In this document: piece by piece, positions 25,284 through 39,416 of the stretch
Layout of the letters: each line of letters starts with the position of its first letter
Numbering within the stretch: position 1 is the stretch's first letter
Assembly (NCBI RefSeq): GCF_000402035.1
Contig: NC_021287.1
Location: 124,001 to 188,000 of the forward strand
Direction: 5' to 3'
From: Caballeronia insecticola
Lineage (GTDB): Bacteria; Pseudomonadota; Gammaproteobacteria; Burkholderiales; Burkholderiaceae
DNA length: 64,000 nt
The notes under the pieces: generated by a model
What the model was told of the DNA's origin: nothing
What the model saw: only the letters and a program-made list of their open reading frames with translations
Database searches by the model: none
Made by a program: the position numbers and the translations under genes

Positions 25284-28001
<2,718 letters not shown>

Positions 28002-36076: not shown

Positions 36077-36832
36077 ATGACCGATCACTCAGGCGGCACG
36101 CCGCCCTACTCGATTCCCGGTTTTCCCGGATTCGGCCAGGCGGACATGATGGGCAAGATGTGGGAACTGATGCGCCTGAATCCATTCGCCGCCGCAATGC
36201 CGGGCGGCGGGCAGGGCATGGGTCCTTCCCTTTCGATGATGTCCGACATGCTCGCACCGCTCACCAATATCGAAGAACTCGACAAACGCGTGACCGACAT
36301 GCGCGCCGTCGAGCACTGGCTGAAGCTCAACCTGAACATGCTGCAATCGGCGATTCAGGCGCTCGAAGTGCAGCGCGCGACGCTCGCGACGCTGCGCGCG
36401 TTCGGCGCGTTTGCGCAGACGTCGGTGGAAAGCGCGCAGAACACCGCGAGCGAAAAGCCGAAATCCGCGGCTGCCGGCTGGCCGATGAACACCGCCACCG
36501 CGAAACCGGAGGCGCCCAGGCAGCAGGCGGCCGCCGAAGAATCCGGCGCGGAAGGTGACGACCCGGCCGCGGGGCAGGCCGCGCCGCCGCCCGGTTTCGA
36601 TCCGTCCGGCTGGTGGAACGTGTTGCAGTCGCAGTTCAACCAGCTTGCGCATCTGGCGATGATTCAGCCCGGCATGACCGGCCCGCTCGGTTCGACGGGC
36701 GATGCGCCGTCCGCCGTCGCCCAACCGGGCGCGCAAGATCCGGCTGCGGGCGCCGGCGAGGAGAAATCCGAAGGCGCCGCCGCGAAGAAGGCGCCCGCGA
36801 AAAAGGCCGCGCCGCGCAAGAAACCCGAGTAA
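36077..36832 (+). CDS. phaM: PhaM family polyhydroxyalkanoate granule regulatory protein
   Basis: A 251-residue protein. The N-terminal half ([13 protein letters not shown], then [37 protein letters not shown]) is the PhaM/PHA-granule domain that contacts PHA synthase, and the C-terminal [15 protein letters not shown] tail is the histone-like, DNA-binding module that ties granules to the nucleoid in Ralstonia. An Ala/Gly/Pro/Gln linker joins them. AAGGAGAGG precedes the ATG. It follows the enoyl-CoA hydratase after 38 bp. Granule metabolism links to CoA chemistry upstream. Confidence 0.85.
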
Positions 36833-36861: not shown

Positions 36862-37110
36862 CATCCACCGAATCCCTTCGATGCGCCGCGCATCGGACCG
36901 CGTCCAGCGTTTTTTGCATCCGTTGTGCATCCGTTGCGCATCCATTTGGCTCGCCGCTTCGTACACGAACGTGCAGGTGTACGTCCCGCTATTGCCAGGC
37001 GTTCAACTTTGTCTATGATGAAAACTGGACGTCGCTAGAATTTGTCCACCCTCTGGAGCGGGCACATAACCTGCATCGGTAGAGACGTCATTTTTTTCAT
37101 CGATCTGTCC

Positions 37111-38115
37111 ATGACAAATTCAACTGAACAGGAATTTGATTCCGATCCGATTTCTGACGACGCAACGCTCCCCGAGCCCGAGCCGAGGCGCGCGCAGGCG
37201 TCTGGAGCGGTGGGTGTCGGGATTGGCGCGATCGCGCAAGAGATTGGTCTGACGAAGGACACGCTGCGCGTCTGGGAGCGGCGCTATGGCTTTCCGAATC
37301 CGATGCGTTCGCCCGGCGGCGAGCGGCTGTATCCGCAGGAACAGGTGTCGAAGCTGCGGCTCGTGAAGCGTCTGCTCGACGCGGGGCATCGGCCGAGCAA
37401 GGTGCTCGCTCAGTCGGTCGAGATGCTGCAGCAACTCGCCGAGAGTTCGGGCGTGGGACAGGACGCGCCCGACGCGGAGCTCGATCATCTGATTGCCCTG
37501 CTGCGCGCCGGCTCGTTCGAAGATTTCCGCTTTGGGCTGCTGAAACGCGCGACCCGCGACGGGCTCGAACGCTTCGTACTGGACGTGGCGGCGCCGCTGG
37601 CGGCGCGCGTCGGCAATGCGTGGGCCGCCGGAACCTTGCAGGTGTATCACGAGCATTTGTTCAGCGAGGCGCTGCAAGCCACGCTGCGCAATTTGATGCG
37701 CCCGCTGTCCGACGCGCTGCGCGGTCGCGGCAGCCGCCCGCGCGTGCTGCTCACGACGCTGTCCGGCGAAGGCCACGGCCTCGGCATTCTGATGGCCGAA
37801 GCCATGTTCACCCTCTCCGAGTGCGAGTGCGTCCAACTCGGACTGCAGACGCCGCTGCACGATATCGTCGATGCCGTGGCGGCGCATAACATCGATATCG
37901 TCGCGCTGTCGTTTTCGGCTGTGCTGCCCGCGCAATCCATCTCGAACGGCATCGCGGACCTGCGCAATCTGCTGCCGTCGCACGTGCGCATCTGGGTGGG
38001 CGGAAGCAGTCCGGCGCTGCGCCGCAAGTTCAACGACGGCGTGCATCACGTCGAAGGGCTGACGCCGATCGACGAAATTGTCGCGGATTGGCGTCAAACC
38101 TCCGTGCTAAGATGA
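37111..38115 (+). CDS. MerR-type regulator with cobalamin-binding domain, candidate CarH/LitR photoreceptor
   Basis: A 334-residue regulator. The MerR winged helix covers about 36-105 (IGAIAQEIGLTKDTLRVWERRYG, GGERLYPQEQV). A helical cap (about 125-200) follows with W171 and E181-H182 in the exact W-x9-EH spacing that marks AdoCbl-binding caps of CarH. The Rossmann B12 domain has E220-x-H222-x-x-G225 (GEGHGLG), where H222 would be the lower cobalt ligand. CarH/LitR proteins repress genes in the dark and fall off DNA when light breaks the Co–C bond. The ATG at 37111 is chosen over an upstream TTG. The start region has no strong ribosome site. Confidence 0.85.
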   Translation: MTNSTEQEFDSDPISDDATLPEPEPRRAQASGAVGVGIGAIAQEIGLTKDTLRVWERRYGFPNPMRSPGGERLYPQEQVSKLRLVKRLLDAGHRPSKVLAQSVEMLQQLAESSGVGQDAPDAELDHLIALLRAGSFEDFRFGLLKRATRDGLERFVLDVAAPLAARVGNAWAAGTLQVYHEHLFSEALQATLRNLMRPLSDALRGRGSRPRVLLTTLSGEGHGLGILMAEAMFTLSECECVQLGLQTPLHDIVDAVAAHNIDIVALSFSAVLPAQSISNGIADLRNLLPSHVRIWVGGSSPALRRKFNDGVHHVEGLTPIDEIVADWRQTSVLR

Positions 38116-38537: not shown

Positions 38538-39416
38538 ATGAACACCATGCTTTATCCGGAACTTTATAAATCGCTGGAATCCGTCCGCTGGGATATGGAG
38601 AAGGATATCCCCTGGGACAAATTCGATGCGTCCCTGCTCACCGACGAGCAGGCCCGGACCATCAAGATGAACGCGATCACCGAATGGTCCGCTCTTCCCG
38701 CAACCGAAATGTTCCTGCGTGACAACCACAACGACAGCGATTTCTCCGCTTTCATCAGCGTGTGGTTTTTCGAAGAGCAGAAACACTCGCTGGTTTTGAT
38801 GGAATATCTGCGGCGCTTCAAACCCGAATTCGTGCCGACCGAAGAGGAGTTGCACGAAGTGCGCTTCGAGTTCGATCCGGCGCCGCCGCTTGAAACGCTC
38901 ATGCTGCATTTCTGCGGCGAAATCCGGTTGAATCACTGGTATCGGCGCGCGGCCGAATGGCATACCGAACCGGTCATCAAGCATATTTACGAAACCATTT
39001 CGCGCGACGAAGCCCGCCACGGCGGCGCGTATCTGCGCTACATGAAGAAGGCGCTGGCAACTGCGGGCGATACCGCGCGCGCCGCGTTCGCCAAGATCGG
39101 CGTGCTGATGGCGTCCGCGCGCCGCACGGAAAAGCCGCTGCATCCGACCAACCTGCACGTCAATCAGGCGCTGTTTCCGCGCGATACCGTGCAGTCGCGC
39201 CTGCCCGATCCGGAGTGGCTCGAGCGCTGGCTCGACGACCAGATCCGCTTTGACGACAGCTGGGAAAAGAAGGTGGTCGAACGCATTCTGCATAACCTGT
39301 CGATTCTGTTCGAGCGTTCGTTCGTGACCGCGCAGGAACTGAACCGCTACCGCAAGGAAGTGGTTTTGCGTCTGCAAGCCGCGGCGCCGGGCGGTGCGGC
39401 CGAGCAGCCGGCCTGA
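38538..39416 (+). CDS. ferritin-like diiron protein
   Basis: A 292-residue soluble four-helix-bundle protein. Six residues fit a carboxylate-bridged diiron site: E57, E80-x-x-H83 (EEQKH), E128 and E158-x-x-H161 (DEARH). The arrangement E/ExxH/E/ExxH is that of ferritin-like oxidases and acyl-ACP desaturases. The C-terminal third (about 190-292) is not part of the four-helix core. Oxygen-dependent chemistry such as desaturation, hydroxylation or peroxide handling is expected; no substrate can be named. The ATG at 38538 has GGGGTGG upstream. It follows the B12 regulator on the same strand. Confidence 0.75.
   Translation: MNTMLYPELYKSLESVRWDMEKDIPWDKFDASLLTDEQARTIKMNAITEWSALPATEMFLRDNHNDSDFSAFISVWFFEEQKHSLVLMEYLRRFKPEFVPTEEELHEVRFEFDPAPPLETLMLHFCGEIRLNHWYRRAAEWHTEPVIKHIYETISRDEARHGGAYLRYMKKALATAGDTARAAFAKIGVLMASARRTEKPLHPTNLHVNQALFPRDTVQSRLPDPEWLERWLDDQIRFDDSWEKKVVERILHNLSILFERSFVTAQELNRYRKEVVLRLQAAAPGGAAEQPA

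Follow-up and report, generated by a model that had tools for sequence, protein, structure and literature searches.

A gene in a stretch of 64,000 nucleotides from Caballeronia insecticola (contig 1, positions 124001-188000, of a five-contig genome of 6.96 Mb; hereafter the window), here termed carH, is read as coding for a class I LitR/CarH-type repressor with adenosylcobalamin (AdoCbl) as its light-sensitive cofactor, a reading to which a probability of roughly 0.7 is assigned and in which AdoCbl binding, photolysis, the change of the oligomer, repression and a lipid target are predicted. The gene is intact, and its product, a good candidate for a green-light switch, would add a well-conserved member to the known class I LitR/CarH proteins; the novel part, namely the neighbourhood of the gene and the form of its operators, has been computed in both cases. 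If the reading is true, Caballeronia responds to light via vitamin B12, and class I LitR/CarH becomes linked to furan fatty acids, lipids reported to be protective against singlet oxygen.

The frame (coordinates in Table 1) has zero internal stops, and its start is likely the ATG at 37111, though the frame is open upstream to a TTG at 37042. The N-terminal MerR helix-turn-helix (HTH) domain scores 48.3 bits against a cut-off of 21.6 (PF13411), and both B12-binding subdomains, PF02607 and PF02310, are found above cut-off, with which the fold match of a predicted model agrees. W171, E181 and H182, and equally E220, H222 and G225, stand where the original prediction had placed them, and either motif occurs a single time in the protein. 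As a measure of chance, all six frames of the 64 kb were scanned: they contain 2 instances of W-x9-EH uninterrupted by a stop and 8 of E-x-H-x-x-G, but a single one, carH, of GxxW-x9-EH ... ExHxxG ... GxxxP in this order. The signature reported for light-responsive cobalamin domains, GxxW, EH, GxxH and GxxxP (PMC11796333), is complete in the product. A search of the own genome with the carH protein gives a single match, and among six matches to B12-binding domains, two of them below the family cut-off, W-x9-EH is present in carH only (1/6); a BtuR/CobA-type adenosyltransferase is also encoded. The motifs had been proposed to separate light-responsive regulators from ordinary MerR proteins, and they provide a useful contrast with other B12 domains as well, as carH has E-x-H-x-x-G in place of D-x-H-x-x-G, which we take to be the defining motif of the MetH/corrinoid methyltransferase type and which occurs as DVHDIG in a MetH-like locus (L003). 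A B12-binding domain in a MetH-like frame of 907 codons with DVHDIG, probably a B12-dependent enzyme, lies about 10 kb from carH at window positions 26460-26741 on the minus strand.

Conservation was followed in 121 proteins, the carH product (P0001) and the best 120 of the listed homologues. Nearly all close homologues, checked for loss of the tryptophan or the EH pair, retain them (W171 in 117, E181 and H182 in 120 each), and E220 is kept in 119, H222 in 118 and G225 in 118; among the exceptions, P0092 and P0103 are fragments gapped there, and P0052, P0072, P0100 and P0115 carry real substitutions. As a regular expression, both motifs are found in 114 and the full ordered signature in 112 of these proteins. 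The 46 related loci from named genomes are titled Caballeronia or, by older or informal names, Burkholderia, Candidatus Burkholderia or Paraburkholderia, with one Burkholderiales metagenome-assembled genome in addition; the closest, at 91% identity, belongs to 'Burkholderia peredens' LMG 29314, also listed as Caballeronia peredens.

The LitR family is reported to consist of five classes, with class I based on AdoCbl, class II having only the helical subdomain and class III occurring mainly in Burkholderia. The presence of PF02310 separates the carH product from class II, which is without the Rossmann B12 subdomain, and the presence of PF02607 together with PF02310 separates it from class III, with a C-terminus unlike B12 domains. 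Domain order, full signature, model and conservation thus sustain the originally proposed membership in the family of light-responsive AdoCbl regulators as class I, while light sensing itself is something we infer. LitR of Burkholderia multivorans, which had been named as a comparator, is a class III protein that shares the MerR HTH and comes from an organism of the same family but has no B12 domain. Equally, five class III-like proteins, one each from five of the 22 genomes with an HTH-only match given below, have MerR domains only (5/5) and none of the carH motifs, and by length and HTH these HTH-only proteins are probably class III. Class II LitR proteins (PplR1-3 of Pseudomonas putida, PmlR2 of Pseudomonas mendocina) are members of the same family with a reported regulon including ufaM, phrB and folE and inverted-repeat operators (PMC9758184); they are, however, unlike the carH product in having only the helical B12 subdomain and, in the case of PmlR2, a signal from a LOV protein, and their box T(G/A)TACA-N12-TGTA(C/T)A is unlike the carH dyad described below.

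Across 120 genomes of the family, 11 of the 11 listed own-genus genomes hold a long uninterrupted match, 7 genomes outside the genus have a match that takes in the B12 part (interrupted by a stop in one, lacking the HTH end in another), 22 outside the genus match in the HTH only (E 1e-9 or better, frames of about 320-400 amino acids), and 48 are without a match; in this sample no genome belongs at once to the 18 that match in the B12 part and to the 22 that match in the HTH alone. That the two classes, I and III, strictly exclude each other was considered and rejected, as three genus genomes (G021, G027, G033) hold both kinds of match. In L123 a class III-like LitR gene adjoins folE, the gene of GTP cyclohydrolase I, and in L126 one is flanked by a photolyase on one side and FAD/DUF1365/cyclopropane fatty acid (CFA) genes on the other; the B12-less class III seems to adjoin the same kind of target genes as class I.

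Footprinting of the regions upstream of carH gave a recurring half-site TTTGTC that forms the dyad TTTGTC-N3-GACAAA. At up to one mismatch, the dyad is present at 47 of 63 carH starts (those of the window, L007-L050, L090-L092, L096-L098 and L127-L138), 23 times exactly, and at none of 198 control starts of the same loci (diiron gene 0/52, hldE 0/52, phaM 0/45, coaX 0/49); the loci are related, so that neither the 47 nor the neighbourhood counts given below are independent (L047 is the contig of L129; L091 and L093 are near-copies), and for some loci the distance from dyad to start is measured to an extrapolated start position. The start codon itself lies within the dyad in most Caballeronia (TTTGTCC-ATG-ACAAA). 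Six of ten non-Caballeronia loci have it (Comamonas L096, Azoarcus L097, Eleftheria L098, L134, L137, L138), L129 and L136 only at two mismatches and L132 and L135 not at all; where two dyads occur, they are spaced by 62 to 64 bp in L098, L134 and L138 and by 74 in L097. A consensus scan of the carH upstream region found 2 promoter-like sites on both strands, one of them on the plus strand, versus 0.5 in shuffles; the GTCTATGATGA block is kept in most relatives of the window's arrangement, and the -35 shows no visible conservation in these relatives. A PplR-type box, CGTACA-N12-TGTACG at 36960-36983, resembles the class II LitR consensus with the outer bases free; it was rejected as operator, being present in 0/44 relatives and rarer in the genome as a pattern than its reversed control (4 vs 10).

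The order phaM - carH - diiron gene - hldE is common to the window and 23 Caballeronia loci (L007-L025, L027, L028, L035, L045). Another 13 Caballeronia loci (L029, L031, L033, L034, L036-L044) have, opposite carH and on the other strand, an operon that encodes an FAD oxidoreductase, a DUF1365 protein and a CFA-type methylase, accompanied in 10 of the 13 by a chalcone-isomerase-like gene. This operon is found facing carH also in Azoarcus sp. KH32C and at seven loci from the family and order (L130, L133-L138), with 1.1-1.9 kb between the starts of carH and operon in five of the seven and a broken carH in L133, which brings the arrangement to 21 loci out of 63, the window not included (the loci of the dyad count minus the window plus L093). 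By family and operon context the three facing genes are predicted to be UfaD-, UfaO- and UfaM-like furan-fatty-acid genes; in Rhodobacter sphaeroides, UfaM (methylase), UfaD (NAD/FAD-binding) and UfaO (DUF1365) are reported to synthesise furan fatty acids, and singlet oxygen is reported to kill cells that cannot produce these lipids (PMC7380195). The predicted operon is absent at the carH locus of the window and in its arrangement. In three loci that belong to other families within the order (L135, L136, L138), carH sits between operon and diiron gene, which suggests that this order is older and that the window's lineage may have lost the operon from the locus.

The diiron gene itself was rejected as a dedicated target, for it comes next after carH at almost every chromosomal locus of Caballeronia, yet is present with or without carH: matches occur in 94 of the 120 family genomes, and among 25 fetched diiron loci the gene is preceded by a carH match in 15, by phaM without a carH match in 6 (L150, L151, L152, L155, L160, L162) and, as far as the stretch extends, by neither of them in 4. 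With the dyad in 0/52 diiron start regions and terminator-like sites between the two genes, the diiron gene is probably not a specific target of carH and may receive read-through from it.

On these grounds a mechanism can be proposed in which, in the dark, AdoCbl would be held between two subdomains, the helical one, whose W171, E181 and H182 surround the adenosyl group, and the Rossmann one, whose H222 binds the cobalt, and would keep the protein as a DNA-binding oligomer. On TTTGTC-N3-GACAAA elements that cover the -10 box and the start codon of carH the oligomer would repress its own gene, and in relatives also the facing UfaD-, UfaO- and UfaM-like operon for furan fatty acids. Light would break the Co-C bond, the adenosyl group would leave and repression would end, a step expected to proceed without the Thermus-type bis-His ligation of the cobalt because that histidine is an alanine here. 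Since the carH locus of the window's lineage no longer has this operon, the carH promoter would be the sole target with sequence support.

Several observations weigh against this assignment. The NCBIfam equivalog model of CarH, NF052513, requires 400 bits and gives 129.5; CarH of Thermus thermophilus (TtCarH) passes with 510 bits and three other betaproteobacterial homologues fail equally with 116-134, so that the model appears narrow and the carH protein is not filed under it. Known CarH operators are reported as tandem 11-bp repeats nnnnTnnACAn, inverted repeats having once been proposed for CarA (PMC9304148). The half-sites at carH form a dyad and are otherwise spaced by 33 and 63 bp, whereas TtCarH has three contiguous tandem repeats; a single half-site (TTGTCTATGAT, other strand) nevertheless fits the repeat. 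A further difference from TtCarH is that no carotenoid genes are seen at the carH locus. The dyad at one mismatch is missing in 16 of the 63 loci (L021, L023, L026, L032, L047, L048, L050, L092, L127, L129-L133, L135, L136). Genome-wide, up to one mismatch, it occurs at 9 sites versus 7 for the reversed control, and no second target was found; the eight sites besides carH lie inside mechanically called open reading frames. The paired pattern TTGTCYA-N14-27-TTGTCYA has two occurrences genome-wide, one in the carH promoter and one at C4:586773, with 0 in the control.

Contig C3 (46200-53600; L088, L089) holds an extracytoplasmic function (ECF) sigma factor, an RskA-type anti-sigma factor, DUF1295 and a weak CFA-methylase match, then matches to FAD oxidoreductase, DUF1365 and CFA-methylase, with what reads as a lipocalin-like gene inside, and is a candidate for a second furan-fatty-acid-like cluster with another regulator. 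Its UfaD-, UfaO- and UfaM-like genes have 54, 42 and 50% identity to those of L034. As a carH target the cluster is not supported, standing beside the ECF sigma/RskA pair without paired half-sites; it has just two isolated half-sites and no dyad. The own photolyase gene has one half-site after it and none before it within the fetched stretch. With no clear enrichment of the dyad, no dyad or paired half-sites at the C3 cluster and no half-site before the photolyase in the fetched stretch, only autoregulation is supported by sequence; the carH regulon may be small, or its sites looser.

Equally, the alignment with TtCarH, originally named as a check, matched the motif residues with those of the pocket and failed at the light-state ligand, His132 corresponding to Ala172. 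Of the 121 proteins, 115 have Ala at this position, 3 have Thr, 2 Ser, 1 Met and none His, and it is Glu in the Azoarcus and Eleftheria plasmid homologues, so that the mechanism of Thermus is not transferable residue by residue. His132 is reported to become the second cobalt ligand in the light and TtCarH-H132A to stay mostly tetrameric after light, with an earlier report of disassembly also mentioned (PMC10442372); by analogy, Ala172 could indicate a slow or damped switch. The replaced histidine, the tetrameric H132A protein and the failure to find a photoprotection target in the own genome by dyad and half-site searches also fit a sensor of the AdoCbl level, on which light would have little effect as the photolysed form, without an equivalent of His132, would stay oligomeric and DNA-bound. 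This is considered unlikely in view of CtMerR of Chloracidobacterium thermophilum (8JBS/8JBT), which is alike in fold and signature of the B12 domain and in the missing histidine, carries Arg instead of Ala at this position, has a divergent DNA-binding domain with 25% identity to that of TtCarH, and is reported to be a tetramer in the dark that monomerises in the light (PMC11796333). Absence of His132 need therefore not abolish sensing, and any switch of the carH product has to manage without bis-His ligation, which CtMerR is reported to do. Furthermore, the protein retains the residues that in TtCarH point towards the adenosyl group, and the facing operon in relatives is predicted for singlet-oxygen-protective lipids, not for B12 enzymes. 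H180, adjoining E181, is His in 102 of the 121 proteins, and a possible role for it as a substitute cobalt ligand is speculation. If the class I reading is true, this natural 'H132A' branch of CarH would offer a chance to test the role of the bis-His step.

The conserved cofactor-contact residues, together with a ratio of nonsynonymous to synonymous substitution (dN/dS) of 0.11-0.21 in the B12 part, equally make it quite improbable that the carH product is a B12-independent repressor like Myxococcus CarA, with the B12 domains as an oligomerisation scaffold and release by an anti-repressor protein or redox; such a mode of action draws on the reports that CarA, a paralogue of CarH, works without B12 (PMC9304148) and that class II LitR PmlR2 is under control of a LOV protein (PMC9758184). 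On the other hand, the operon absent from the window locus, the paired-half-site pattern restricted to carH and one further place in the genome, and the fragmented or missing carH in small genomes of the genus could be taken to mean that carH is a functionless orphan, being lost after the loss of the operon in the window's lineage. This is barely credible: uninterrupted carH is present in 31 of 32 genus genomes of at least 5.5 Mb, promoter elements are kept in most operon-less relatives, and in 21 of 23 operon-less loci dN/dS versus the window gene is 0.06-0.15 in the HTH and 0.11-0.21 in the B12 part, so that carH is under purifying selection in the operon-less lineage of the window.

In 37 genomes of the genus, the 31 in which an unbroken match covers 89% or more of the protein are all of 5.5-10.3 Mb, and 0 of 5 genomes of up to 4.2 Mb have one. 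Remnants of 60 and 58 residues are left in G001 (10.1 Mb) and G035, carH is in pieces in G017 and G025, and G002, only 60% complete, and G034 show no match; the sizes of G002, G034, G035, G017 and G025 are 2.4-4.2 Mb. In the 'Candidatus' assemblies L046, L048 and L050, which we take to be leaf-nodule symbionts, and in Caballeronia sp. BR6202001590007 (L049), carH is fragmented in two or three frames and the diiron-gene match is full-length in each; that carH is uninterrupted in 'Candidatus Burkholderia verschuerenii' (L025) speaks against a simple rule for symbionts. Reduced genomes thus tend to lose carH, as would fit a sensor required outside a host and equally a general loss of genes.

The class I assignment may, tentatively, be extended to a distinct betaproteobacterial branch of B12 photoreceptors, with dyad operators able to enclose their own start codon, no bis-His ligation and furan fatty acids instead of carotenoids, in which the sensor of the window would be a self-regulated orphan that controls something unlinked. 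In the open-access literature no paper was found that joins 'Caballeronia' with 'CarH' or 'CarH' with 'furan fatty acid', other wordings not having been searched exhaustively.

Table 1. Features of the carH locus by position in the window
Feature	Position	Strand	Basis or remark
phaM-like gene upstream of carH	36077..36832	+	NF043076
Sigma-70-like promoter of carH, TTGCCA-N16-TATGAT	36992..37019	+	Consensus scan; -10 inside operator element 1
Predicted operator element 1, TTTGTCTATGATGAA, dyad with 2 mismatches	37008..37022	+	Overlaps -10 TATGAT
Predicted operator half-site 2, TTTGTCCACCC	37041..37051	+	33 bp downstream of element 1
Predicted operator dyad TCTGTCC-ATG-ACAAA, 1 mismatch, enclosing carH start codon	37104..37118	+	63 bp after half-site 2
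carH/litR-like gene (P0001), MerR HTH and two B12-binding domains, 334 amino acids	37111..38115	+	
MerR winged helix-turn-helix, residues 38-94	37222..37392	+	Pfam PF13411
Four-helix B12-binding subdomain, residues 122-203	37474..37719	+	PF02607; helices in predicted model
W171-x9-E181-H182, aligned with adenosyl-face residues of TtCarH	37621..37656	+	
A172, in place of TtCarH His132	37624-37626	+	Alignment
Rossmann-type B12-binding subdomain, residues 211-333	37741..38109	+	PF02310; predicted model
E220-x-H222-x-x-G225, H222 as predicted lower cobalt ligand	37768..37785	+	
Ferritin-like diiron protein gene (FA_desaturase_2/AurF-like), usual downstream neighbour	38538..39416	+	

Rfam and tRNA scans of the window gave zero matches. 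Near the carH-linked operon in L029, L031 and L033 an ECF sigma factor gene (83-85% alike) is located, and in Caballeronia glathei (L030) the ECF sigma gene is present and the operon absent within a stretch of 13 kb. In L137 a photolyase-related protein (DPRP, PF04244; 3787-5316) is encoded directly downstream of the carH homologue. Caballeronia sp. NK8 (L090, L091, L092, L093; contigs C5, C7) has five carH copies, four of them on two plasmids, and at none of these four plasmid loci is there a furan-fatty-acid-like operon. Paralogues of about 435 amino acids in L032 (5683-6999) and L092 (5635-6942) have an N-terminal extension of about 105 residues with CxxC ... CxxC, which gave no match in a Pfam scan of the L032 paralogue and is possibly a zinc-ribbon fused to the B12 regulator.
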